From positions 62,001-126,000 of the forward strand of contig JAIQGL010000003.1 of the NCBI GenBank assembly GCA_020072585.1: a stretch of 64,000 nucleotides of DNA. The letters are read 5' to 3'. Below are positions 35,253 through 48,843 of the stretch, one piece after another. The DNA comes from Terriglobia bacterium. Lineage in GTDB: Bacteria; Acidobacteriota; Terriglobia; Terriglobales; Acidobacteriaceae. A program made the translations under genes and the position numbers. How positions within the stretch are numbered: the first letter of the stretch is position 1; the number at the start of each line of letters is the position of its first letter. The notes below the pieces were generated by a model. The model was not told the DNA's origin. It did no database searches and worked only from the letters and a program-made list of their open reading frames with translations.

Positions 35253-36611
35253 TTGTCCACAAGGAAAATGTCTGCCATGAAATTGTCCGCCAGGAACGTG
35301 ACCGCTCACGCTGTGTTGTTTTTGATTGTGAGTGCTTCGCTGGCTCAGCTTGCCGCCCAGGAAGCGCAGCCGGGAAGTTCCGCCCAGGCGCCGCTTACGC
35401 TCACCTTGCAGGACGCTCTGACGCGGGCGCGCAGCAACAGCGTCCAGTTCCAGGCCGCGCTTACCGATCAGGGAGTGGCGCGTGAAGACAAAGTGCAGGC
35501 CCGCGCGGCTTTATTGCCTAGCCTTACCTACAACAACCAGTTCGTTTACACTGAGCCCAACGGGACTCCCTCAGGCGTTTTTGTGGCAAACAATTCCCTG
35601 CATGAATATCTGAGCCAGGCAAATATTCATCAAGTGCTTGGATATACCAGCTATGCGGACTTTCGACGGGCGCGGGCACTGGAAGCGGTGGCTCGCGCCA
35701 GGGCTGAGGTCGCCAAGCGCGGGCTGGTAGTGGCCGTGGTGCAGGGTTACTACGGGTTGATCGCCGCGCAACGCAAGTATTCCAATGTTCAGCAGGCGGC
35801 AGCCGAAGCAAAGCAGTTTTTGTCTCTCAGTCAAAAACTGGAGAATGGCGGCGAAGTGGCGCACGCAGATGTGATCAAGGCGCAGATCCAGTCCAACGAC
35901 CGGCAGCGCGATCTCCGCGAGGCGCAGCTTGCCATGGACAAGAGCCGGCTGGATCTGGCCGTGCTCCTGTTTCCTGATTTCAATTTGAACTTTACCCTGG
36001 TCGATGATGTGCAGCTTGCCCCACCGCTCATGAGTTTTGAAGATTTCGTCAAAGCCGCGCAGAACCGGAACCCGGACGTTCGTGCATCAAACGCCGGCTT
36101 CCAGGCGGCAAGGTTTGAGAGGGCTTCCGCCCAGAGCGGATACTTTCCTACCCTGACATTCGATTATTTTTATGGCATCGATGCGCCGCATTTTGCAAAG
36201 CGCGAGCCCGATGGAACGCGCAACCTGGGCTACGCCATTGCGGCCACTTTGAATATTCCGGTATGGAATTGGGGTGCCACGCACAGCAAGGTCGTACAGG
36301 CCGATCTTAAGCGCAAGCAGGCGCAGCGCGAGCTCTCACTGGCGCAGCGGAAATTGCAGGCCGACATGCGTGAAATGTATGCTGAAGCCGAGGCCGCGCG
36401 AGCGGAGCTGGAGCTGCTGAAGAGCTCCGCCGATCTTGCGTCCGAGAGTCTGCGCCTCACGATCTTGCGCTATCAGGGCGGGGAAGCCACGGTCCTGGAA
36501 GTGGTGGATGCTCAGAATACACTTACCCAGGCGAGGAACGCTTTCAGTGATGGCGAGGTGCGGGCGCGGACCGCTCTGGCGAATCTGCAAACCCTGACAG
36601 GTACAATGTAA
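35253..36611 (+). CDS. TolC-family outer-membrane efflux channel
   Basis: About 452 residues. A signal peptide (NVTAHAVLFLIVSASLAQLAAQ) precedes two TolC repeats with long coiled-coil helices, seen in LTLQDALTRARSNSVQFQAALTD and FVKAAQNRNPDVRASNAGFQ, and the closing RYQGGEATVLEVVDAQNTLTQAR. It would form the outer-membrane duct of the tripartite pump with the two genes that follow. I start at TTG 35253 because a perfect AGGAGG lies 4-5 bases before it; ATG 35268 or 35277 is the alternative and costs only the first few residues. The gap to the adaptor gene is 13 bp. Confidence 0.93.
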   Translation: MSTRKMSAMKLSARNVTAHAVLFLIVSASLAQLAAQEAQPGSSAQAPLTLTLQDALTRARSNSVQFQAALTDQGVAREDKVQARAALLPSLTYNNQFVYTEPNGTPSGVFVANNSLHEYLSQANIHQVLGYTSYADFRRARALEAVARARAEVAKRGLVVAVVQGYYGLIAAQRKYSNVQQAAAEAKQFLSLSQKLENGGEVAHADVIKAQIQSNDRQRDLREAQLAMDKSRLDLAVLLFPDFNLNFTLVDDVQLAPPLMSFEDFVKAAQNRNPDVRASNAGFQAARFERASAQSGYFPTLTFDYFYGIDAPHFAKREPDGTRNLGYAIAATLNIPVWNWGATHSKVVQADLKRKQAQRELSLAQRKLQADMREMYAEAEAARAELELLKSSADLASESLRLTILRYQGGEATVLEVVDAQNTLTQARNAFSDGEVRARTALANLQTLTGTM

Positions 36612-36624
36612 CTTCTAATTTACT

Positions 36625-37959
36625 ATGCCAAATTGTAAGAGAAGACAGGTTGGAGTAAGCGTCTGTGTTGCAGCAGTGTGCCTGGCGATTGCCGGCTGCG
36701 GCAAGGGCGAAAAGGAAGAGGCCCCTGAGGTCAGCGTTCAGGCTGCACCGGCCATCAAGGCCGATATCTCCCGCGTGGTGATCACAGACGCGATCATCTT
36801 TCCCGTCGCACAGTCAGCTATCACGCCCAAGATCAATGCGCCGGTAAAAAAATTCTATGTGGTGCGCGGGCAGAAGGTGCGCCAGGGCCAGTTGCTGGCG
36901 ACTCTGGAAAACCGCGATCTATCCGCCGCCGCAATGGATAACAAAGGGGCTTACGAACAGGCCGAAGCGGCATATAGCACAAATGTTGGCGCGACTCTGC
37001 CAGAGGAAAACGCTAAAGCGGAACTTGACGTGCAGACGGCGCAGCAGGAACTTGACGCTCAGCAAAAGCTCTATACCAGCCGTGAAGATCTCTTTAAGCA
37101 AGGCGCGCTGCCGCGCAAGGACCTTGATGCCGCCGCCGTATCTCTGGCCCAGGCCAGAAGCGCTTACAACATCGCCAAAAAACATTTGGATGGACTGAAT
37201 GCCGTAGGCAAGCAGGGAGCGCTGAAATCGGCAAGCGGGCAGCTTACCTCGGCCAAGGGGAAGCTGCTCAATTCTGAAGCGCAGCTCAGTTATTCTGAAG
37301 TTCGCAGCCCGATCGACGGTTACATCACTGACCGTCCACTTTATCCCGGTGAGATGGCGTCGACTGCTGCTCCGCTACTGACAGTGATGGATATCTCGCA
37401 GATCATTGCGAAAGCGCATGTGCCGCAGAGCGATGCATTGCTGCTGCATAAAGGCGACAAATCCACAATTTCGCTCGCTGGACTGGAGACGCCAATAACC
37501 GGCAAGGTCGCGCTCATCAGCCCAGCGCTTGATCCCAACAGCACAACGGTTGAGGTATGGGTGCAGGCGCCAAATGCCGGCCAGCAATTGCGTCCTGGAA
37601 CCACTGCCCAGGTGGCGATTACCGCCGAGACGATGAAGGATGCACTGGTCGTACCCGGTGCCGCGCTGTTGAATGCAAAAGGCGATCAGGCCCAGTTAAT
37701 GGTGGTTGACGATCAAAGCGTGGCCCACAGCCGTGACGTAAAGACGGGCATTCAATCCGGCCAGCAAGTCCAGATTGTTTCCGGACTCAAGCCCGGTGAA
37801 GTGGTTGTGACTGAGGGAGCTTATGGCCTGCCCGATAAGACCAAGGTGAAGGTAGAGAAGGCTGAGAGCCCATCGGCCGCTGAAGGCACGGAAAAGGACA
37901 AGGACGATGAGGCCAGGTCCAAGGACAATGCCGCAAAGAGCAAGGGCAAAAAGGACTAG
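36625..37959 (+). CDS. RND efflux periplasmic adaptor (membrane fusion protein)
   Basis: 444-residue lipoprotein: the lipobox LAIAGC puts the anchoring Cys near residue 25. The lipoyl/barrel-sandwich halves flank a coiled hairpin: KKFYVVRGQKVRQGQLLATLEN, then AQQELDAQQKLYTSREDLFKQGALPRKDLDAA, then YSEVRSPIDGYITDRPLYPGEM. The beta-barrel and C-terminal domain follow, with a Lys/Asp/Glu-rich tail (SKDNAAKSKGKKD). It bridges the RND pump and TolC; the pump gene follows after 5 bp. Confidence 0.94.
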   Translation: MPNCKRRQVGVSVCVAAVCLAIAGCGKGEKEEAPEVSVQAAPAIKADISRVVITDAIIFPVAQSAITPKINAPVKKFYVVRGQKVRQGQLLATLENRDLSAAAMDNKGAYEQAEAAYSTNVGATLPEENAKAELDVQTAQQELDAQQKLYTSREDLFKQGALPRKDLDAAAVSLAQARSAYNIAKKHLDGLNAVGKQGALKSASGQLTSAKGKLLNSEAQLSYSEVRSPIDGYITDRPLYPGEMASTAAPLLTVMDISQIIAKAHVPQSDALLLHKGDKSTISLAGLETPITGKVALISPALDPNSTTVEVWVQAPNAGQQLRPGTTAQVAITAETMKDALVVPGAALLNAKGDQAQLMVVDDQSVAHSRDVKTGIQSGQQVQIVSGLKPGEVVVTEGAYGLPDKTKVKVEKAESPSAAEGTEKDKDDEARSKDNAAKSKGKKD

Positions 37960-37964
37960 GCCAA

Positions 37965-40900
37965 ATGGCGGATGACCGCAAGCTCACCAACGGCTCCGAA
38001 GTCAGAATAGATGCACCTCGTCGCCACTGGCTCGCCGAGAACTCCCGGACAGTACTTTTTCTCATCATTGTTATGGGTTTAGTCGGGGCCTATCAGGCAT
38101 TCACTATCCCTGTAGCTGTATTTCCTTCCACAAATTTTCCCCGCATCGTGATCGGCGTGGATAACGGCGTGATGCCGATTGATCAAATGATGGTCACTAT
38201 CACGCGCCCCGTGGAGCAGGCCGTCAACAGCGTGCAAGGACTGGAAACAGTACGTTCCATTACCAGCCGAGGATCAGCCGAAATTGATTTGTTTTTTAAC
38301 TGGCATGTGGACATGTTCCAGACGCTGCAGCTTGTGGATGCGGCGCTGGCCAGGGTCGCGCCTGAACTGCCGCCGGGTGCAAGGATTGAAAGCCACAGGC
38401 TCACCTTCGCGTCATTTCCGATCCTTGGTTACAGCCTGACTTCAGACAACGTGCCCCAGACGCGGCTCTGGGAGATGGCGACGTATGACATTGCGCCGCG
38501 CTTAAATCGCATGTCCGGCGTGGCCACGGTGATTGTGCAAGGCGGGCAGGAGCCTGAATTCCAGATCACACCCAGCCCGGCCCGTTTGCTGGCAACGTCA
38601 GTGACGGTCACAGATATTTTGAATGCGGTGAAAGCCACCAACCTGGTGGATTCGCCCGGATTGTTCGAACGTAACCATCAATTGGTGCTGGGCCTGGTGA
38701 GCGGGCAGGCGCGGAATGCTGACGATCTGGCGAATACCGTGATCAAGAACACTCCAGCAGGACTGCCGGTGCGCATTGGCGACGTGGCTACGGTCCAGCA
38801 GTCAGTCAAGCCGCTGTATACGATTGTGCGCGCGGACGGCAAGCCTGCGGTCCTGCTGAATATTAATCGCCAGCCGGACAGCAATACGGTTGCGGTGGCG
38901 GATGAGGTGCACGCCGAAGTCGACCTTATCCGGAAGACGCTGCCGCCGGGAATTCATCTCATACCTTTTTACGACCAGTCAGGGATCGTTCAGGACTCCA
39001 TCAAGAGCGTGCGCGACGCTATTTTGCTGGGGCTTACTCTCTCCGCGATTGTGCTGGTAGTTTTTCTGCGCGACTGGGGCAGTTCAGTGGTGGCAGGCCT
39101 GGTGATTCCGATGACGATTTTCATCACCTTTATTGCGCTGAAGCTGCTGGGCCAGAGCTTTAACCTGATGACGTTAGGCGGGCTTGCTGCCGCAGTCGGC
39201 CTGGTGATCGACGATGCCATTGTTGTGGTGGAAAATATTGTTCTGCATCGCGATGCCGGCGAGGGAAAGATCCAGGCTGTCCAGAGCGCGCTTTCAGAGA
39301 TTACAGTGCCGCTGGTCGGTTCCACTCTTACACCAATCGTTGTATTCCTGCCCTTGATCTCAATGACTGGGGTAAATGGAACTTTTTTCCGCGCGCTGGC
39401 AGTGACCATGTGCGCTGCGCTGCTCACATCTCTGGTGCTGGCGCTTACCTGGACGCCAACATTAAGTTTCTTTCTGCTACGCCGCAAAGACCCTGAGCAA
39501 CCCACTGCCGGTGAAAGTGCTGACATGGACCAGGAGATCCGCAGGCTGATGGCCGCTGAAGAAGCGTCGATGGCGGGCTTCTTCGGGCGGGTCATTTCGT
39601 TTTATGAGCGCTGGTTGCGTCGTGCGCTGGAGCATCCAAGGTGGCTGCTTGGCGGCGCTGCTCTGCTTATAGTGGTTTCATTTGGGTGTTTCTTCCTTCT
39701 TGGTTCCGATCTTCTCCCGGAAATGGATGAGGGCGGTTTCATCCTTGACTACCTTACGCCGCCCGGCAGCTCACTCCAGGAGACGGACCGCATGGTGTCG
39801 CACCTGGAACAGATGCTGCGGGAAACTCCTGAAGTGGAGAGCACGTCCCGTCGCACCGGTTTGCAACTTGGATTGGCGGCCGTGACCGAAGCCAACCGTG
39901 GCGACATCTCAGTGAAGCTGAAAGCTAACAGGAAACGCGCTACGGACGAGGTGATTGCAGACTTGCGCGCGCAGGTCAAGCGTGAAGAGCCGGCGGTGGA
40001 TGCGGATTTCCCTCTGCTGTTGCAGGACATGATCGGCGATCTTACCGGCGAGCCGGAGCCCGTGGTCATCAAACTGTTTTCTGAAGATTCCAAACTGCTG
40101 GAAGAGCAGGCGCCGCGTGTGGCAGACGCGAGTGAAAAAATCTCCGGCGTAGTGGACTTGAAAAATGGAATTGAAAATACCATGAGCGGTCCGGCAGCGG
40201 AGTTCAGAGTGAACACCACCACGGCTGCCAAAGCCGGATTCACCGCCGAAGAAGTTTCCACTGACGCCACCGCGGTTCTACAGGGAGTAACGTCAGCCAA
40301 TCCCGTAGTGGCGAACAACCGCGCTTATAACGTGCGGGTGCGTTTCCCGGAGCAGAACCGGAGTTCGCTGGAAGCCATGAGTAACACGCTCCTGGTCAGT
40401 TCCGCCGGTCGCACGGCAACGCTGGGATCGCTGGCGCAGCTGAATGAGCTTCCGGGACAAACCGAGATCAACCGGGAAAACCTGCAGCGCATGGTGGAGG
40501 TAACGGCGCGGCTGGAAAAGATGAGCCTGGGTACAGGTGTTGCTAAAGTCCAAAAAGAGGTGTCAGCGCTCCATCTACCTTCAAGCATACGGGTGGTTTA
40601 TGGCGGCAAGTACGCGCAGCAGCAGAAAGATTTTCATGACATGGCCATGGTGCTGGTGCTGGCGATCGTGCTGGTATTTATCGTCCTGTTGTTTGAGTTC
40701 CGTAGTTTCTCTGCGCCAGTGGCGATCTTGAGTTCGGCATTGCTTTCGATCTCAGGCGTTTTTCTGGCTCTGCTGGTGACCGGCAAAACCGTAAACCTGG
40801 CATCATTGATGGGATTGATCATGGTCATCGGCATTGTGGCCAAGAACGGCATCCTGTTGCTTGATGCGAACCAGAAATTTGCGCATGCCGGTTTTGAGCC

Positions 40901-41135
40901 GGAAGAGGCCATGATCCAGGCGGGCCGCCGCCGTTTGCGCCCTATCTTTATGACCGCGTTGGCGACGATGGCAGGCATGCTGCCGCTGGCGTTTGCTCTG
41001 GGTGCGGGTTCTGAAATGCTGCAACCGCTGGCCATTGCCGTGATCGGCGGAATCCTCTTTTCCATGGTTCTATCACTGATCGTCACGCCGGCCGTATATT
41101 TCTATCTGGGCAGGAAAAAAGTTGTAACCGCTTGA
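37965..41135 (+). CDS. RND superfamily efflux transporter
   Basis: 1056-residue inner-membrane proton-driven pump with about 12 membrane segments and two large periplasmic loops, as usual for AcrB-type proteins. The membrane-4 motif GLAAAVGLVIDDAIVVVEN carries the Asp-Asp proton-relay pair typical of the HAE (drug) group rather than the HME metal group. The second half repeats the pattern (FRSFSAPVAILSSALLSISG, MVIGIVAKNGILLL). Substrate unknown. The neighbours (small Cys-rich proteins on both sides, TonB receptor, MNIO cluster) hint at metals or metal complexes, but the motif does not prove it. Confidence 0.95.
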   Translation: MADDRKLTNGSEVRIDAPRRHWLAENSRTVLFLIIVMGLVGAYQAFTIPVAVFPSTNFPRIVIGVDNGVMPIDQMMVTITRPVEQAVNSVQGLETVRSITSRGSAEIDLFFNWHVDMFQTLQLVDAALARVAPELPPGARIESHRLTFASFPILGYSLTSDNVPQTRLWEMATYDIAPRLNRMSGVATVIVQGGQEPEFQITPSPARLLATSVTVTDILNAVKATNLVDSPGLFERNHQLVLGLVSGQARNADDLANTVIKNTPAGLPVRIGDVATVQQSVKPLYTIVRADGKPAVLLNINRQPDSNTVAVADEVHAEVDLIRKTLPPGIHLIPFYDQSGIVQDSIKSVRDAILLGLTLSAIVLVVFLRDWGSSVVAGLVIPMTIFITFIALKLLGQSFNLMTLGGLAAAVGLVIDDAIVVVENIVLHRDAGEGKIQAVQSALSEITVPLVGSTLTPIVVFLPLISMTGVNGTFFRALAVTMCAALLTSLVLALTWTPTLSFFLLRRKDPEQPTAGESADMDQEIRRLMAAEEASMAGFFGRVISFYERWLRRALEHPRWLLGGAALLIVVSFGCFFLLGSDLLPEMDEGGFILDYLTPPGSSLQETDRMVSHLEQMLRETPEVESTSRRTGLQLGLAAVTEANRGDISVKLKANRKRATDEVIADLRAQVKREEPAVDADFPLLLQDMIGDLTGEPEPVVIKLFSEDSKLLEEQAPRVADASEKISGVVDLKNGIENTMSGPAAEFRVNTTTAAKAGFTAEEVSTDATAVLQGVTSANPVVANNRAYNVRVRFPEQNRSSLEAMSNTLLVSSAGRTATLGSLAQLNELPGQTEINRENLQRMVEVTARLEKMSLGTGVAKVQKEVSALHLPSSIRVVYGGKYAQQQKDFHDMAMVLVLAIVLVFIVLLFEFRSFSAPVAILSSALLSISGVFLALLVTGKTVNLASLMGLIMVIGIVAKNGILLLDANQKFAHAGFEPEEAMIQAGRRRLRPIFMTALATMAGMLPLAFALGAGSEMLQPLAIAVIGGILFSMVLSLIVTPAVYFYLGRKKVVTA

Positions 41136-41260: not shown

Positions 41261-41647
41261 ATGCGGCGCATTTTATCCATTGCGATAGTTGTCGCCTTGT
41301 TTTCGTCCATGCTCTCGCCCGTGATGGCGGAGGCATGTACGGCAGCGGGGAAGGCAGCTTCTTGCCATGAAGAGGCAATGCCGTACTGTGACCGGCCCAT
41401 GCATGAGCATCACCATCACGGTGCTGCGACGGGTGATTCAAAATCTGGTTTGTCCGCATCTGAAAACGGCGTCAAGTGCCCCATGGATTGTTGCACTCCG
41501 GGACATCCGCGGAATGGTGCTGCCGTTGTTGCAACTTCTATTCTTCCTTTACTGGCAATGAGCGACCGGGAATTCCAATATGTCCCGATCACGTTTACCG
41601 TCGCCGGCTTTTCTTCCCATACGGACCGCGGCCCTCCCCTGGCCTAA
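41261..41647 (+). CDS. Small secreted Cys/His-rich protein, metal-linked candidate
   Basis: 128 residues. A signal peptide (MRRILSIAIVVALFSSMLSPVMA) is followed by CTAAGKAASCHEEAMPYCD, the His-rich HEHHHHG and CPMDCCTPGHPRNG. The protein ends in TDRGPPLA. The layout matches the protein at 34735: signal peptide, paired Cys with His, a middle hydrophobic stretch and a late Gly-Pro-Pro. The Cys/Met/His set suggests binding of copper or a similar soft metal; this is inference. There is no Shine-Dalgarno sequence; a TTGCTT-N18-TATAGT pair ends 13 bp before the ATG, so the message may be nearly leaderless. Confidence 0.68.
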   Translation: MRRILSIAIVVALFSSMLSPVMAEACTAAGKAASCHEEAMPYCDRPMHEHHHHGAATGDSKSGLSASENGVKCPMDCCTPGHPRNGAAVVATSILPLLAMSDREFQYVPITFTVAGFSSHTDRGPPLA

Positions 41648-41848
41648 CCAATCACGATCCTCAAGCTCCCTGAGAACCAAGCTTGCACACGATTTGAAGT
41701 GTATTCCGTGCTTTCTGCCAGAAGCGATTTGCCACGATCAAAGCGCGGATTGCTGAACGGCTTTTCAGGTTGAACTAAGCAGCGAACCGGCAAAACAACC
41801 AGGCGCTTGGCATTTTTTCCGGGCTGGCGCCAAGGGGAACGGTCAACC

Positions 41849-44074
41849 ATGAAACTTACAACAGTCGTCGTACTGGGCATCTTTCTGATTTTTGTCACAG
41901 CAGAATCTTTCGCCTCGGTTTTTGGCACCGTCAAAGCGATTGTTCATGATCCGCAGCACCGGCCCGTGCAAGGAGCGCAGGTTGAGGTGCAGAGCCGCAC
42001 TTCTGCATTCAAGACGGCAGGAACAACGAACGAGGATGGAATCGCCACTGTAGTCAACGTTCCCGTTGGGGAATACGACATCAAAATCATTTCGCCTGGA
42101 TTTACGGTGGCAGAGCAACCCGTCACGGTTACTTCCGGAAACGTACAAGAAATGCATTTTGCATTGGTGCTGGCACAGCGCCAGGAGATGGTAGAAGTTT
42201 CCGGCGCTCCGGAGACCGTGAATCCGTCTTCGGCGACTCCGCAGGCGCTGGTAAGCCGGAATGATATTGCCCAGACGCCCGGCGCGGACCGCACCAACTC
42301 CATGTCCATGATCACTGACTTTGTCCCTGGTGCGTCCATGGTGCATGACCAGTTGCATGTGCGGGGGGGACATCAGGTGACGTGGGCCATTGACGGGGTT
42401 CCCGTTCCGAATACAAACATCGCTACCAACGTGGGGCCGCAATTTGATCCCAAGGACATTGATTACCTTGAAGTGCAACGCGGCAGCTTTTCCGCTGAAT
42501 CCGGTGACCGGACTTACGGCATGTTCAATGTGGTTACACGCTCCGGCTTTGAGCGTTCCCGCCAGGGCGAACTTGTAACCAGTTACGGAAGCTACAACTC
42601 CACGGACAGCCAGCTGAGCGTTGGTGATCACAACGACCGGTCGGCATATTACTTCAGCATAAACGGCAATCGTACGGACCACGCATTGGAAACGCCGACA
42701 ACCGACAACCTGCATAATCAAGCTGCCGGCGGCGGAGCGTTTACTTCGCTGATCTTTAATGCCACGCCGAAAGATCAGTTGCGCTTTGTGGGATCGGCAA
42801 GGACCGATTTCTACCAGGTACCGAATGACGCCGATCTGCAAAATGCAGGGGTGCGGGACCGAGAGCGCGAGCAGGACATCTTTGGCAGCCTTTCCTGGGT
42901 ACACACGTTTGGTCCGGGCGTTTTGTTTACGCTGTCACCTTCCTATCATTTTAATCGCGCGGCTTTTGAAGGACTGGGAGCGCCTGACCAACGGATCGTT
43001 ACCACTGACAACCGGGCTTCTTCCTATGCCGGTGGGCAGGCTTCCGTCAGTGTGGTGCAAGGCCGCCATAATGCGAGCATTGGTTTTTATGGATTTGCCC
43101 AGCATGACAATACGCTCTTTGGCCTGAATGGCACCAATGACATAGGCGATGCGGTGGATAAACATCCGCCGCGGCAGAAGGTTGGCGGCGATCTTGAAGC
43201 TGTTTGGATTCAGGACCAGTACAAGGCGTCCTCATGGCTCTCTTTGACGGCGGGAGTGCGCTTCACGCGTTTTGCCGGACTGGTAACTGAAACCGCGGGA
43301 AGCCCGAGGCTGGGAATTGCGATCCAGATTCCCCATCTGCACTGGGTGTTGCGTGGCGGCTATAGCCGTTACTACCAGGCGCCTCCGCTGGATACGGTTT
43401 CCAGCGACGTGCTTACTGCCGTGTCGCCTGATCAGGGATTTCTGCCGCTGCGCGGCGAGCGCGACGAGCAGCATGATGTTGGCTTGACGATTCCAGTCCG
43501 CGGCTGGGTCTTGGACTTTGATCATTTCCGCACCGGCGCACACAACTTCTTTGATCACGACGCTCTGGGAAACTCCAACCTTTTTATTCCGCTGACGATT
43601 GAAAGCGTCCGCGTTCTTGGTTATGAAGCTACAGTGCGTTCGCCCAAGCTTTTCAAGAAACTTGATTTCCACCTGGCGTATTCGCGCCAGTCAATAGAAG
43701 GGTCGGGCGGGATCACAGGCGGGCTTACGGACTTTGCGCCCCCAGCCAATGGCTTCTTTTTTCTTGACCATGATCAGCGGCACACGTTGAGCACAGGATT
43801 TACTTCAGTGCTTCCGTACAAAAGCTGGCTCTCCGGCAATGTAACGGCGGGATCTGGTTTCCTTGCCGGCGATGGGCCGGGCCATCTGCCCAGCTACGCG
43901 ACCCTGGATCTGTCAGTGGGGCACTCATTCGGCGAGAATTGGTCAGTCAAGCTGACGGCGACGAATCTGGCGGACAAAAGATATTTCATTGATCGCACCA
44001 ACAGCTTTGGCGGCTCGCACGTGAGCGATCCGCGCATGGTTACCGTACAGTTGCGATACAAATTTCATTACTAG
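41849..44074 (+). CDS. TonB-dependent outer-membrane receptor with N-terminal carboxypeptidase-regulatory domain
   Basis: 741 residues. A signal peptide (MKLTTVVVLGIFLIFVTAESFAS) precedes a CarboxypepD_reg-like domain (about 25-110, VQGAQVEVQSRTSAFKTAG), the plug (about 130-240, with HVRGGHQVTWAIDGVPVPN) and a 22-strand-type barrel ending in DPRMVTVQLRYKFHY. It would take up an energy-coupled substrate such as a metal chelate or oligomer. I start at ATG 41849 after AGGGGAACGG; the upstream frame to 41807 lacks a signal peptide. It is convergent with the MNIO operon (10 bp between stops); a role in importing that system's product or its metal is inferred from position only. Confidence 0.91.
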   Translation: MKLTTVVVLGIFLIFVTAESFASVFGTVKAIVHDPQHRPVQGAQVEVQSRTSAFKTAGTTNEDGIATVVNVPVGEYDIKIISPGFTVAEQPVTVTSGNVQEMHFALVLAQRQEMVEVSGAPETVNPSSATPQALVSRNDIAQTPGADRTNSMSMITDFVPGASMVHDQLHVRGGHQVTWAIDGVPVPNTNIATNVGPQFDPKDIDYLEVQRGSFSAESGDRTYGMFNVVTRSGFERSRQGELVTSYGSYNSTDSQLSVGDHNDRSAYYFSINGNRTDHALETPTTDNLHNQAAGGGAFTSLIFNATPKDQLRFVGSARTDFYQVPNDADLQNAGVRDREREQDIFGSLSWVHTFGPGVLFTLSPSYHFNRAAFEGLGAPDQRIVTTDNRASSYAGGQASVSVVQGRHNASIGFYGFAQHDNTLFGLNGTNDIGDAVDKHPPRQKVGGDLEAVWIQDQYKASSWLSLTAGVRFTRFAGLVTETAGSPRLGIAIQIPHLHWVLRGGYSRYYQAPPLDTVSSDVLTAVSPDQGFLPLRGERDEQHDVGLTIPVRGWVLDFDHFRTGAHNFFDHDALGNSNLFIPLTIESVRVLGYEATVRSPKLFKKLDFHLAYSRQSIEGSGGITGGLTDFAPPANGFFFLDHDQRHTLSTGFTSVLPYKSWLSGNVTAGSGFLAGDGPGHLPSYATLDLSVGHSFGENWSVKLTATNLADKRYFIDRTNSFGGSHVSDPRMVTVQLRYKFHY

Positions 44075-44084
44075 GGTTTCAGTC

Positions 44085-45035
44085 TCATTGGTGCGCGGCC
44101 CGCGCGGAAAGTGGGGACGCAGTAATCGCCTTGCGGATATTTGCCTCCGGCGCTTTGTCATTGAAGCTGACGGAGCCGTCTTTCATCGCGATTCCGAGCT
44201 TTGTCCAGAGTTTCTCCAGATCGACGGGCGCGGGCGTGTCACGCATTTCCTTGTAGAGGCTGCGCAGCACCGTGGTCCCCGTTGCCTTGTCGCCGATGGC
44301 GAGGGCCTTCGCAATCTCCCAATCCTCGCTGATGCTGCCGCCGGCCTTGTTGATCCCGCGTAATGCGTCCTCAAGGCCTTTGCGGTTTTTTGTATGCTCG
44401 CGAATGCGCACATCGGCCACCAGGCAAAATAGCGCGCCGCCCCAGTAGGTCCGTCCCCAGCTGTGGGTGTGGTCGAGTCCCTCGTCGCCAGGCTGCGGCT
44501 CACCTTTGGGCATATCACGAACAAAGGTGCCCCATACCTCGGCAACAGACATGCCGCCCATGCGCGCCCGGGCCACCGGCTCGGCATACGTGGAGATTCC
44601 TTCTTCAATCCAGCGCTGGTCGTCACCCATGTTGGGGAAAGCGAGATGGATCATTTCGTGGACCAGTACCCAGTCTTCTTTGGTGGCGGCGACATCGGCA
44701 TTGTTGCCAACGCTGATCAAGATGAGGCCGCCGTCTTTGGAATAGGTAACACCATGGCGTATGCCGGAGCCGTTGCTGCCGCGGATACGCAAGGTGAGAT
44801 GGGGAACGGGAAAGCGGCCGTAATAGTTGGCGACTGTTGAAGCAGATGCCTGGACCCAGCCCAGCAGCTCCTGCCGTGACAACTTCATTGGCGCATCAGG
44901 CAGGGTCACGTCAATGGTTGCGCCTGCAACCTTGAGCTCTGCACGGTCTGTGTCAGGAGCCTGGCCGTGGGCGGCTCGAAAAGACAAAAACATCAGCAGA
45001 AAAGCCAATATCTTATGGAGATGATGAAATCCCAT
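44085..45035 (-). CDS. Secreted HExxH (gluzincin-like) protease-like protein
   Basis: 316 residues. The signal peptide ends near AAHGQ (residue 25). The metal-binding site HEMIHLAF and the downstream Glu in WIEEGISTYAEP fit a gluzincin zinc protease of the peptidase-MA type, a family common in Acidobacteriota. It would act in the periplasm. It is the last gene of the same-strand run DUF692 / DUF2063 / DoxX / this, 23 bp after the DoxX gene. Trimming of the RiPP precursor or of a partner is possible but not shown; MNIO clusters do not usually need a protease. Confidence 0.8.
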   Translation of the reverse strand: MGFHHLHKILAFLLMFLSFRAAHGQAPDTDRAELKVAGATIDVTLPDAPMKLSRQELLGWVQASASTVANYYGRFPVPHLTLRIRGSNGSGIRHGVTYSKDGGLILISVGNNADVAATKEDWVLVHEMIHLAFPNMGDDQRWIEEGISTYAEPVARARMGGMSVAEVWGTFVRDMPKGEPQPGDEGLDHTHSWGRTYWGGALFCLVADVRIREHTKNRKGLEDALRGINKAGGSISEDWEIAKALAIGDKATGTTVLRSLYKEMRDTPAPVDLEKLWTKLGIAMKDGSVSFNDKAPEANIRKAITASPLSARAAHQ

Positions 45036-45058
45036 GAATCACAGACTAACATCAGGCG

Positions 45059-45559
45059 TCAAACGGTAGCAGCAGAAACCTGAGACCGGCGTTTTTTCCA
45101 CCAGGCCGCGACAACGGTATCCAGGGAGAGCCAGCCCGGTCCAAAAATCAAGACCAGAAGCGACACAAGCAGGAAGGGAAACGGGTCGGCTCCGAAAAAT
45201 TTGCCGGATTCAGAAAAGAAGGCCGTCAGGGCCTCCCGGTCAGCGGTGATATAGGCCACAATCATGTTGATCAGCAGAGGAACTGCAATCAGGCGCGAAG
45301 CCAGTCCAAGAATCAGAAGGATTCCGCCAACTGTTTCCAGAGAAGCATTGAAGTAGGCATTCAACGTTGGAGCAGGGATTCCCAGCTCAGTGAAGAAGCT
45401 GATCACCTTTTCTATGTGGGAGAATTTACCGATTCCGCTCTCAAGGAACAGCCATCCCCAATAGAGCCGGATTGCAAGCAGGAAAGGTGACTGAAGGGAA
45501 TCAGCCGCTTTGAGGAACCAGTTGCAAAGGACTTCAAGCTTGCTGGTCAGCGAATTCAT
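45059..45559 (-). CDS. DoxX-family membrane protein
   Basis: 166 residues, four hydrophobic segments. The N-terminal stretch with FLLAIRLYWGWLFLESGIGKF and the later ASLETVGGILLILGLASRLIAVPL match DoxX. In HvfABCD-type MNIO clusters the fourth gene (HvfD) is a DoxX protein, and the position here fits: 6 bp after the DUF2063 gene. Its exact role is unsettled; a membrane redox or anchoring function is assumed in the literature from memory. Confidence 0.88.
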   Translation of the reverse strand: MNSLTSKLEVLCNWFLKAADSLQSPFLLAIRLYWGWLFLESGIGKFSHIEKVISFFTELGIPAPTLNAYFNASLETVGGILLILGLASRLIAVPLLINMIVAYITADREALTAFFSESGKFFGADPFPFLLVSLLVLIFGPGWLSLDTVVAAWWKKRRSQVSAATV

Positions 45560-45565
45560 TCAGGA

Positions 45566-46456
45566 TTATTTCTCCACGGGCCGGCAGAACCAGCCTAACT
45601 CCGCCCAGTTAGCGAACCAGTCATGCAGCTGTTCCATGACGCGCTCCAGTTTTTTCCCTGACCAGTTGACCGACGTTTCGATTGCCTGGGAGAGCGGCTG
45701 CCCCTGCTGTAGAGCCCGCAGCAAGGCAAAGGCTTCCGGCTTCAGCCGCTTGAAATATACGCTGTACTGCTGACGGTGCACGGCCAGATAGACTTTTTTT
45801 GTCTTGGGCAAAATCTGTTGTTTGTGCGGCCTGGACTCCGCGCTGTCCATGACCACCACGTTACTGGAGATGTCAGTCTCGGGTTCTTCAGTTTCGCGGA
45901 CCTTGAGCAGAAGTTCATCCACGGGGTAGGCAAGATCAAGCAGCTGGATATGCGGCTGCAAATGAAACACTGGATCTTCACCCAGACTGCCAAGCTCGTT
46001 CTGGGTGAGAACAGGCAATTCGGCGGCATCGTAGGCTTCAATGTCAGCCCACTCCAGCCGGACCATGTCCAGCGCCATGCGCTCATGTTCCGCGATCAAT
46101 TCAGGATGCGCGCGAAGCCATTTTTCCAGACGCGAACCGAGATCGCGCAGGGTAAAAGACTCTGAAGGCATTTCAGTCAGGTAACCGAGCAGAACCTGGT
46201 CGAATTTTTCCTGTCCTATCACCGCACGAAGGCCGGGAAAATCATCCGCCAGGGAAGAAAGAATGCGGAACCAGTAGACACGGTTGTAGATTTCCAGGCG
46301 CTCCACCGAGGTGAGCCGATCGTTTGGTTTGATGACCTTTTCCGCTATCTCCGTGGTGGACTTACCATCAAGCGTGAGCGGGCGCATGCGCTCATCTTCC
46401 GTGAGGGGTTGCCGCACAACTTCAAAGACCGCGCGCTGGATCTGGTCCAGGTTCAT
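45566..46456 (-). CDS. DUF2063 protein, MNIO partner (HvfC/BufC-like)
   Basis: 296 residues. The N-terminal DUF2063 domain (about 1-95) shows MNLDQIQRAVFEVVRQPLT and RLEIYNRVYWFRILSSLADDFPGLRAVIG. It acts as a partner of the DUF692 oxidase, thought to bind the precursor peptide leader or to hold the enzyme complex. The remaining 200 residues include LEWADIEAYDAAELPVL, which is the BufC/HvfC pattern. Its start overlaps the DUF692 stop by 4 bp (ATGA). Despite a DNA-binding label in some databases, the genetic context says peptide modification. Confidence 0.9.
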   Translation of the reverse strand: MNLDQIQRAVFEVVRQPLTEDERMRPLTLDGKSTTEIAEKVIKPNDRLTSVERLEIYNRVYWFRILSSLADDFPGLRAVIGQEKFDQVLLGYLTEMPSESFTLRDLGSRLEKWLRAHPELIAEHERMALDMVRLEWADIEAYDAAELPVLTQNELGSLGEDPVFHLQPHIQLLDLAYPVDELLLKVRETEEPETDISSNVVVMDSAESRPHKQQILPKTKKVYLAVHRQQYSVYFKRLKPEAFALLRALQQGQPLSQAIETSVNWSGKKLERVMEQLHDWFANWAELGWFCRPVEK

Positions 46457-47301
46457 GACGCCACCGCAGAACTGGCGGGCACATAGCGCTGGGCCTTCAG
46501 GGCCTCTTTATGGACCTCATCGAAGGAGGGAATGCGGTCATCCCATTCCAGCAGAGTTGCCGTGGGGCCGGCGAGTTCAATGGCCTTGGCGTAAAGCTGC
46601 CACACGGGATCAAGGACCGGATGATCGTGCGTGTCAAGAATATATTTCTCGTAATTCGAATGACCAGCAATATGGATCTGGGCGACGCGCTCCGCAGGGA
46701 CGCTCCGCAGGTACTCAAACGGATCAAAACTATGATTGCGTGATGAAACGTAAATATTATTCACGTCGAGCAGAATGCCGCAGTCGGCATCTTCCACAAC
46801 TTCGTTGAGGAATTCCCATTCCGTCATTTCAGAAACGTGATACTCGGCATAACTGCTCACATTCTCCACGGCAATGGGAACTTCCAGAAAGTCGCGGGCC
46901 TCGCGGATCTTTTGTGCGGTACGTTTGGCAGCTTCAAATGTGTACGGCATGGGAAGCAGATCGTGTGAGTAGCGGCCATCCACGCTGCCCCAGCAAAGGT
47001 GGTCAGTAAGCCATGGAGTGTTGGTGCGCTTGACGAGCTTTTTTAAACGGCGCAGGTGTTCACGGTTTAATGGTTCAGCGGAGCCAAAATACATGGAGAC
47101 GCCGTGTTGCACTACACGATAGCGCTCCAGAATCTGATCAAGGACCTGAAGCTGGCGGCCGCCTTCCACCATGAAATTTTCTGAGATGATCTCAAACCAG
47201 TCCACTACGGGCTTTTTCTCAAAGATATGGCCGTAGTGAGGAATGCGCAGCCCAATGCCGACGCCGTAGTCTTTATTTCCGTTGAATCGATTTGCGGGCA
47301 T
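46453..47301 (-). CDS. DUF692 multinuclear non-haem iron oxidase (MNIO, HvfB/BufB-like)
   Basis: 282 residues, TIM-barrel metalloenzyme. MNIOs hold two or three irons and oxidatively modify Cys residues of a peptide (to oxazolone/thioamide or thiooxazole-type groups). Candidate ligands: His66 (VQHGVSMYFG), His101 (TDHLCWG), Glu146 (VENVSSY), the DVNNIYV segment (178-184), His210/His214 (QIHIAGHS) and DTHDHP (223-228). I start at ATG 47301 (MPANRFNGNKDYG); the upstream frame to 47358 has no family match. It lies 87 bp after the precursor gene and overlaps the DUF2063 gene. Confidence 0.95.
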   Translation of the reverse strand: MPANRFNGNKDYGVGIGLRIPHYGHIFEKKPVVDWFEIISENFMVEGGRQLQVLDQILERYRVVQHGVSMYFGSAEPLNREHLRRLKKLVKRTNTPWLTDHLCWGSVDGRYSHDLLPMPYTFEAAKRTAQKIREARDFLEVPIAVENVSSYAEYHVSEMTEWEFLNEVVEDADCGILLDVNNIYVSSRNHSFDPFEYLRSVPAERVAQIHIAGHSNYEKYILDTHDHPVLDPVWQLYAKAIELAGPTATLLEWDDRIPSFDEVHKEALKAQRYVPASSAVAS

Positions 47302-47388
47302 AAATCTATGTGATGAGTAAGAGAGAAGAACTAAAACAGAGGACCAGCGGAGTTCCACCGGCCCTCTTGAACCACTGAGGGCCTATGG

Positions 47389-47667
47389 CTACTTCGCCTC
47401 TTTTTCCATGGGCTTGCCGTCTGTCCTGCAGCCGCCTTTGCCTTTACAATCGTTCTTGCCTTTGGTTTCGCCGCAGCCGCCCTTGCCTTTGCAAGAGTTC
47501 TGGCCTTTGCAGGCGTGCTTGTCTTTCTTTGCTTTACCGGCTTTTTTACCGGAGTCGGCTTTCTTGGTGTCGTCCTTCTTTTCGGTGTCCTGGGCAAGGG
47601 CGTTCTGGCCAGCAACAAATCCTGTCAGGGCCGCACCCATCAGCAGTAAACGCACAGACTTAGTCAT
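47389..47667 (-). CDS. MNIO RiPP precursor peptide, Cys-rich secreted (HvfA/bufferin-like)
   Basis: 92 residues. The signal peptide (VRLLLMGAALTGFVAGQNALA) ends near residue 25. A Lys/Asp linker (27-50) leads to a core with five Cys at 53, 59, 65, 74, 80, in two repeated units QNSCKGKGGC and KNDCKGKGGC. Signal peptide plus CxxG/GGC core next to DUF692 is the hallmark of bufferin/HvfA-type precursors, whose modified Cys bind copper. The usual DUF2282 core (EGKCG type) is not seen; the Lys-Gly-rich version is a less familiar kind. GGGAG lies 9 bases before the ATG. Confidence 0.88.
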   Translation of the reverse strand: MTKSVRLLLMGAALTGFVAGQNALAQDTEKKDDTKKADSGKKAGKAKKDKHACKGQNSCKGKGGCGETKGKNDCKGKGGCRTDGKPMEKEAK

Positions 47668-47961
47668 TTTGAAAAGATCTCCCTTCCAATTTTTTTAAAG
47701 GCGCTGCAAAAGAGCAATCCTACGGAACTGAACACAACAGGGAGCCGTTAGTTGCTCTTGGCAGTCGTCCTTTGAAGTACGTACAGCAATGCAAAACGGA
47801 TTGGTTCAAATTCAGTCATTGAATGCGACGGAGCGTACCGCCGGTAGAGGGTAAATAGTTGCACATCTTCTAGGGACAAATATGCGAGGGAATACTAACA
47901 TGGCGCTGCAAGGAGAAAGAAGCCTTTTTCTTTTCTTCCCAGATGCCACTTTAGATACAAC
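47668..47961. other. Upstream region of the MNIO operon, no gene
   Basis: 294 bp between the precursor start and the convergent-side polyprenyl synthase stop. It must hold the operon promoter on the minus strand. I looked for an ECF-type GGAAC/GTC pair and for a copper-box-like palindrome and found no convincing match. Confidence 0.4.
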
Positions 47962-48843
47962 TTAATTTTTGCGCTGTACAAGGAAATGGGCCAAGTCCTT
48001 AAGCGTTTGCGCGCTGTGACCAAATGGATCAAGGGCGCCGCAGCCGGTAGCGACCAGGGCGTCAGCCTGGCGAAGCGATTCGTCAATCCCAAACAGGGAG
48101 GGATAAGTTGCTTTTTCTGAAGCCGTGTCTTTGCCGGCAGTCTTGCCCAGTTGCTCAGAAGATTGTGTGACGTCAAGCACGTCATCCACGATCTGAAAGG
48201 CCAGCCCGATGGAGCGGCCAAAATCCCGTAGTCGCTGGATTTCCACGCCAGAACCGTTTGCATATATACCTCCACTCACCAGACTTGCAGTGATGAGCGC
48301 GCCGGTTTTGGAGCGATGAATATATTCCAGCGTCGCGGCATCAGGGCGATGGCGCTCTGCCTCCAGGTCCTTCACCTGTCCGCCAATCATCCCATCCACG
48401 GTGCCGGTTCCCCGGGCAATCTCCTCGATGATCTGAACCCGCGCTTCTGCTGGACATTTCAGGCAGGCCAGAACTTGATAGGCCTGAGTTTGCAGTGCGT
48501 CACCGGCCAGGATGGCCAGCGCTTCCCCAAAGGCCACATGGCAGGTTGGTTTGCCCCGGCGCAGATCGTCATTATCAAGCGCAGGCAGATCGTCATGAAT
48601 GAGCGAGTAGGTATGGAGCATCTCCAACGCGCTGCCCAGCTCTTCCACGCCTTCCGGAAGACGACCGGCGATCATGCGCGCGGCTTCCATACATAGGACA
48701 GGGCGAAGGCGTTTGCCTCCGGCGAAAACGCTGTGCCGCATCGCCTGATGAATGGAATCCGGCCGCTGGGTGGCGGCGGGCAATAGTCTTTCGAGTGTCG
48801 CATCAATGGTGCGTTGGCCCTGGTCCAGGATCTCTTTAAGCAT
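47962..48843 (-). CDS. Polyprenyl (farnesyl/geranylgeranyl) diphosphate synthase
   Basis: 293-residue trans-prenyltransferase that condenses IPP with allylic diphosphates. First Asp-rich motif HDDLPALDNDDLRRG (Asp84/Asp85/Asp90), the bacterial two-residue insertion form; second motif QIVDDVLDVTQ. GGKRLRPVLC and RSKTGAL are family signatures. I start at ATG 48843, since the frame upstream to 48933 adds a Ser/Arg tail with no homology. Chain length (C15 or C20) cannot be settled. The gene lies downstream of xseB and the receiver-like gene on the same strand, the xseB-ispA order known in many bacteria, though one gene intervenes. Confidence 0.92.
   Translation of the reverse strand: MLKEILDQGQRTIDATLERLLPAATQRPDSIHQAMRHSVFAGGKRLRPVLCMEAARMIAGRLPEGVEELGSALEMLHTYSLIHDDLPALDNDDLRRGKPTCHVAFGEALAILAGDALQTQAYQVLACLKCPAEARVQIIEEIARGTGTVDGMIGGQVKDLEAERHRPDAATLEYIHRSKTGALITASLVSGGIYANGSGVEIQRLRDFGRSIGLAFQIVDDVLDVTQSSEQLGKTAGKDTASEKATYPSLFGIDESLRQADALVATGCGALDPFGHSAQTLKDLAHFLVQRKN

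Follow-up and report, generated by a model that had tools for sequence, protein, structure and literature searches.

The closest described relatives of the locus considered here are the Buf2 (BufA2B2C2) bufferins, or Cys-Lys captophorins, in which a secreted Cys-Lys precursor with 6 or 12 Cys, a BufB-type MNIO (DUF692) oxidase and a DUF2063 partner protein are encoded in the order A-B-C, together with a DoxX protein. HvfABCD systems likewise combine an MNIO, a DUF2063 protein, a DoxX protein and a Cys-rich precursor. In the available text of earlier work, six-Cys DUF692 precursors are described in uncultured gammaproteobacteria (PMC8692599), and for the EGKCG pathways it is left unclear whether one modified polypeptide or digestion into smaller peptides is the outcome (PMC13097082). 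We analyzed 64,000 nt (the window) from a Terriglobia bacterium of the Acidobacteriaceae (assembly GCA_020072585.1, contig JAIQGL010000003.1, positions 62,001 to 126,000 of the forward strand), a soil bacterium whose 6.9 Mb genome, in 74 contigs, has one MNIO match. The window carries an operon that appears to belong to the Cys-Lys (Buf2-like) group of the bufferin/captophorin type, extended by a gene for a predicted metallopeptidase with an HExxH motif. Our preferred interpretation, to which we give a probability of about 0.55, is that this enzyme is a dedicated extracytoplasmic metallopeptidase that cuts the modified peptide. The new part is this fifth gene, which represents a co-occurring family of predicted secreted metallopeptidases; a linked secreted peptidase gene is not described for Buf2 systems or captophorins in the available text of PMC12452194 and PMC13097082. 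The five genes are as follows.

47389..47667, minus strand: Cys-Lys (Buf2-like) precursor, 92 residues; 21.1 bits against BufA2 (cut-off 60), with a homologous precursor at 107 of 111 MNIO loci of the order
46453..47301, minus strand: MNIO (DUF692, BufB-type) oxidase, 282 residues from the ATG at 47301; recognized by Pfam, NCBIfam and an EWDD motif
45566..46456, minus strand: DUF2063 partner protein (PME type 1); recognized by Pfam
45059..45559, minus strand: DoxX membrane protein; Pfam 77.3 bits (cut-off 23.6), HvfX 68.4 bits (cut-off 80)
44085..45035, minus strand: probably secreted M61-like gluzincin (HEMIH ... WIEEG), predicted metallopeptidase, 316 residues; recognized by motif, M61 profile and co-occurrence

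The sequence-only reading had proposed five minus-strand genes between 44085 and 47667, and the open reading frames indeed lie there, on that strand and with the spacings it gave: a 4-bp overlap between the MNIO and DUF2063 genes, a gap of 6 bp before DoxX and one of 23 bp between DoxX and the HExxH gene. The longest reading frame of the MNIO begins at a GTG (47358), with an alternative ATG at 47301. We take the ATG as the likely start because it fits the close relatives (282 residues in three of the same genus), and the gap between the precursor and MNIO genes is then probably 87 bp.

The first four genes resemble Buf2/Cys-Lys bufferins and not HvfABCD. Pfam families were matched over their cut-offs by the MNIO (MbnB_TglH_ChrH, 357 bits), the DUF2063 protein (DUF2063, 52.3 bits against a cut-off of 27.2; NGO1945_C, 27.3) and DoxX, and by neither the precursor nor the HExxH protein. 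The MNIO also passed the NCBIfam BufB model (NF050167; 344.6 bits, cut-off 310), whereas the HvfABCD models stayed under their cut-offs (HvfB 257.8 of 360, HvfC 58.5 of 142, and HvfX as listed) and the precursor contains no EGKCG repeats. Of the earlier label, HvfABCD or bufferin type, the assignment to MNIO copper-peptide systems thus stands and the HvfABCD part does not. The EWDD motif is found in the window MNIO and at 107 of the 111 MNIO loci overall. An Asp following the catalytic Asp has been tied to MNIOs of the Cys-Lys group (in the available text of PMC13097082), and the Asp in the window motif looks like that residue, its position being judged without alignment to FonB or BufB2. Within the Cys-Lys group the window precursor stands apart in having 5 Cys, and the BufA2 cut-off of 60 bits was reached by none of ten acidobacterial precursors tested, the window's included (best 59.6). 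We regard the operon as a divergent form of a known kind of copper-peptide operon, with a peptide that is predicted to be modified and to bind copper.

The fifth protein is probably a secreted gluzincin peptidase related to M61, because the family combines an invariant motif, an M61 profile match and, in nearly all members, a hydrophobic stretch before the domain. Across 70 sequences of the HExxH family, H126, E127, H130, W142, E144, E145 and G146 are invariant, as is a Y-W-G-G motif, so that HExxH and the downstream Glu in WxxEG, which together define gluzincins, are conserved in the family. The M61 glycyl aminopeptidases have HExxH...WxxEG and Y..G motifs that align with these, and a profile comparison of the family with 14 M61 proteins from seven of the genomes covered 218 columns (probability 97.2, E 4.6e-11). 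They differ in length, at 434-710 residues in the 14 M61 frames compared with 316 for the window protein, which scored 12.8 bits against Pfam M61, under the cut-off of 22. Pfam M61 was matched by 35 of the 70 members at E values of 1 or lower, the lowest being 5.9e-4, and no Pfam or NCBIfam model was matched by the family over cut-off. A hydrophobic stretch precedes the domain in 69 of 73 HExxH proteins, as judged by a simple test and not a signal-peptide predictor. The family profile found nothing at E below 0.079 among solved structures, and the protein had no match on plasmids or in PHROGs. Internal stops were seen in the HExxH copies at three loci, L118 (genome G020), L132 (G088) and L135 (G160, which has no MNIO match); in some lineages the gene appears to be in decay.

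The arrangement recurs beyond the window. A contig search with the HExxH protein found one relative, an Acidobacteriaceae metagenome-assembled genome (L002), which carries the end of an MNIO gene, DUF2063, DoxX and HExxH genes, and the same convergent TonB-dependent receptor as the window. In a draw of 298 genomes of the order, 73 matched HExxH; two weak partial matches (G001 and G145) were dropped, leaving 71 carriers, and the omission of weak or second pieces left 73 HExxH places. The full order precursor-MNIO-DUF2063-DoxX-HExxH was found in 9 of the 71 carriers, the window included, with HExxH on the same strand 1.4-1.8 kb downstream of the MNIO. Because the order is complete in these nine genomes, it is not due to chance; an order unique to this genome, which would have spoken against the sequence-only reading, was not what we found. 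Its description of an unusual, protease-like fifth gene is supported. In seven more carriers the order is HExxH, precursor, MNIO, DUF2063, with HExxH 638-677 bp upstream of the MNIO match and the precursor between them. In G203, HExxH follows a DoxX gene oriented divergently from the precursor-MNIO genes. Two HExxH places, one a fragment, lie 7.6-7.8 kb from an MNIO, and in G146 and G260 HExxH lies away from the MNIO and still follows DoxX. Proteins from the downstream and the upstream arrangements occupy different parts of a tree of 80 HExxH proteins.

The distribution of the HExxH gene follows that of the peptide system. An MNIO (PF05114) match was present in 121 of the 298 genomes of the order: in 70 of 71 HExxH carriers compared with 51 of the 227 other genomes (Fisher p 1e-33, with no correction for kinship). 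The lone carrier without an MNIO match, G160, has an HExxH match interrupted by two stops, and 67 of the 70 MNIO-matching carriers have a full BufB-like MNIO. From a second draw, of 396 genomes of the phylum, 32 matched the HExxH profile; 8 weak partials (under 40 bits; 3 of the 8 with MNIO) were dropped. All 24 strong carriers, 13 in the window's family and 11 in seven other families, have an MNIO, compared with 107 of the 396 overall (hypergeometric p 3e-15). We also searched for a Cys-Lys pattern in the DNA, C-K-G-[KQ]-N-x-C-K-G, which occurred in 32 of the 396 genomes; among the rows listed, the reversed control pattern gave none. Among the 352 genomes outside the family, 8 have the pattern and 7 of these have HExxH, compared with 4 of the 344 without it (p 2e-11), and three of those four (G508, G537 and G558) carry variant Cys-Lys precursors. 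Within the family, 13 of the 24 pattern-positive genomes have HExxH and none of the 20 pattern-negative ones. Outside it, the gene thus follows the Cys-Lys precursor rather than the presence of any MNIO; of the 83 genomes there that have an MNIO, 11 have HExxH. That HExxH occurs, among the related genomes sampled, almost only where a Cys-Lys-type system is present suggests a part in processing the peptide.

The window precursor has a signal-peptide-like N-terminus, a Lys-rich linker and the core KHACKGQNSCKGKGGCGETKGKNDCKGKGGC, which contains its 5 Cys. Of the 107 homologues at MNIO loci of the order, 60 have 6 Cys, 42 have 4, 4 have 5 and 1 has 7, and all four 5-Cys forms belong to the window's genus; the 5-Cys precursor is, as far as these sequences go, a lineage-specific form of a family with mostly 6 or 4 Cys. 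Inspection by eye shows that the 42 four-Cys precursors lack both Cys 3 and Cys 4 and that the 5-Cys form lacks Cys 4; the joint absence suggests that these two make up a pair separate from the remaining four. With 6, 5 or 4 Cys, the natural precursors provide ready substrates for mapping the modified Cys. A K-H-x-C motif begins the core in 106 of the 107 precursors, and also precedes many, not all, repeats of tandem-core precursors. By eye, six of nine precursors from other acidobacterial families (L262, L265, L267, L268, L269 and L249) begin with a twin-arginine-like RR[DE]F; twin-arginine export after folding, if it occurs, would explain modification before export. The text of PMC12452194 makes no mention of Tat or twin-arginine export. 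Additional repeats resembling Cys-Lys precursors were seen on contigs without found MNIO genes (G356:C47:40482-40708 and G618:C105:55144-55520).

In the mechanism we favor, the first step would take place in the cytosol, where the DUF2063 protein presents the precursor to the MNIO; Cys in CKG motifs would be converted to thiooxazoles, for which an absorbance near 305 nm is reported (PMC13097082), and the modified peptide would be exported and bind Cu(I), with DoxX as a putative accessory membrane protein. Once in the periplasm, the modified peptide would be cut by the secreted HExxH protein, which would trim the linker that joins the signal peptide to the Cys core or, where relatives have tandem cores, split the repeats apart. 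The likeliest role is that the enzyme processes or turns over the modified peptide outside the cytoplasm, with the substrate deduced from the genetics only. A more specific version is that the enzyme is the missing captophorin maturation protease and cuts, in Acidobacteriota, a modified polyprotein or linker-tethered precursor at or near the K-H-x-C of each Cys unit; we give this only a small chance of being right.

Several observations weigh against a peptidase dedicated to the modified peptide. HExxH is absent from 51 of the 121 MNIO genomes of the order and is therefore not needed for the system. In the order draw, 54 of the 73 HExxH places have no MNIO found nearby; in each of the 11 carriers outside the window's family the gene lies on a different contig from any MNIO found; and the unlinked genes have no fixed neighbor shared across all genera. 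Among the carriers, G217 and G218 have only a piece of an MNIO, at or near a contig end, G260 has only a divergent MNIO, and HExxH accompanies a different, CGK-type precursor in G619; conversely, G548 has the Cys-Lys pattern and no HExxH. The Cys number of the precursor showed no clear link to HExxH (HExxH is present in the genomes of 40 of the 60 six-Cys loci and 23 of the 42 four-Cys loci), and since both forms occur with and without the gene, no mark of a cleavage site is seen in the precursor. AlphaFold2 modeling of the HExxH protein (two sequences) gave a mean predicted local distance difference test score of 39 and no usable structure. The dispensability and frequent lack of linkage would also be explained if the enzyme were a clearance or recycling peptidase, degrading metal-loaded or damaged modified peptide in the periplasm and not maturing it, and the M61-like fold class is in line with this, the peptide being Gly-rich and the Pfam name of M61 being 'glycyl aminopeptidase'. 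However, maturation accounts at least equally well for gene position, HExxH being part of the biosynthetic operon in 9 genomes and lying immediately ahead of the precursor gene in another 7, and we consider clearance unlikely, if worth keeping in view. Less likely again is that the enzyme has other envelope proteins as its substrates during copper stress and shares no more than regulation or ecology with the peptide system. Varied neighbors of the unlinked genes (YebC-, MsrB- and AlaS-like, judged by eye and not by family search) would suit such a role, but the presence of HExxH in 7 of 8 pattern-positive compared with 4 of 344 other genomes outside the family would not.

The genetic link between HExxH and the peptide system is strong, as measured on HExxH itself and not relative to accessory genes of like frequency. 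The genomes in the draws are not independent and every strong carrier in the order draw belongs to one family, as would be expected if the co-occurrence reflected shared ancestry or genome size only. We hold this to be improbable, given that the association persists inside a single genus (g4, 62 genomes, 43 with MNIO), where HExxH was found in 25 of 43 MNIO-positive and 0 of 19 MNIO-negative genomes (p 4e-6; in good-quality genomes 22 of 36 and 0 of 11, p 3e-4), and in 11 genomes of seven other families. An HExxH protein is also encoded beside the MNIO gene in the clusters of adjamnio-III and of PflC and PosC; adjamnio-III comes from a set without signal peptide, with 3-4 Cys and with MNIO and nitroreductase, PflC and PosC are alpha-ketoglutarate oxygenases, and we infer that adjamnio-III is of the PflC kind. 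Since alpha-ketoglutarate-dependent HEXXH oxygenases are known in other MNIO clusters (PMC12636437, available text), the window protein might be such an enzyme, adding a second modification to the peptide. This is barely credible: the enzymes of that report are of a different kind from the HExxH peptidase family, in which the gluzincin Glu (WxEEG) is invariant in 70 sequences, the M61 profile matches and secretion is probable, and the NCBIfam results contain no HEXXH-oxygenase model, either for the window protein, which has no match at all, or among the 12 families listed for the 70 members.

A stem-loop, formed by 13 bp with G-U pairs counted and followed by a short T-rich tail, lies between the precursor stop and the MNIO start.

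47338..47367, minus strand: GC-rich stem-loop of 13 bp; 51 of 107 loci have a similar stem (1.5 expected)

It is a probable attenuator or 3´ stabilizer and perhaps yields more precursor than enzyme. The similar stems have at least 9 pairs within the first 80 nt after the precursor; the expected number is from shuffles, and an in-gene control gave 5 of 107. A scan that demanded a T-rich tail found 19 of 107, compared with 3.9 expected, and missed the window stem owing to the GTG start. General scans of 43900-48100 gave no evidence, with 1 promoter site compared with 2.2 expected and 6 terminator-like sites compared with 4.7. Two neighboring plus-strand genes, not counted here as core parts of the operon, converge on it.

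41807..44074, plus strand: convergent TonB-dependent receptor; beside the operon in three close relatives
41261..41647, plus strand: small secreted Cys/His-rich protein, upstream of the receptor; DUF2946 21.0 bits (cut-off 23.7, not reached)

The pair (41261-44074) is conserved in L064, L065 and L002. At five loci of genus g32 (L180, L205, L208, L215 and L224), another receptor from this family (46-52% identity) is found some 4 kb downstream of the MNIO, and in L205 and L215 a small CCRRNGxHHC protein precedes it. Ahead of the Cys/His-rich protein and receptor, window positions 36003-41135 (plus strand) hold open reading frames that by eye resemble an outer-membrane factor, a membrane-fusion protein and an RND pump.

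Neither 'protease' nor 'peptidase' occurs in the text of PMC13097082 or PMC8692599, the survey naming adjamnio-III mentions 'protease' once, in general terms, and 'peptidase' not at all, and the titles and abstract starts of the literature searched (open-licence PMC text) contain no peptidase link of this kind. Because the HExxH gene is mostly unlinked, the two surveys consulted, which covered the neighborhoods of MNIO or partner genes, could miss it, and comparison of gene presence across genomes finds it. If the enzyme does cleave at K-H-x-C, short copper peptides would be freed, whose N-terminal His would possibly join the copper site. Questions of digestion like that raised for the EGKCG pathways gain a concrete, testable gene in the peptidase-like family that accompanies the sister class of Cys-Lys systems.

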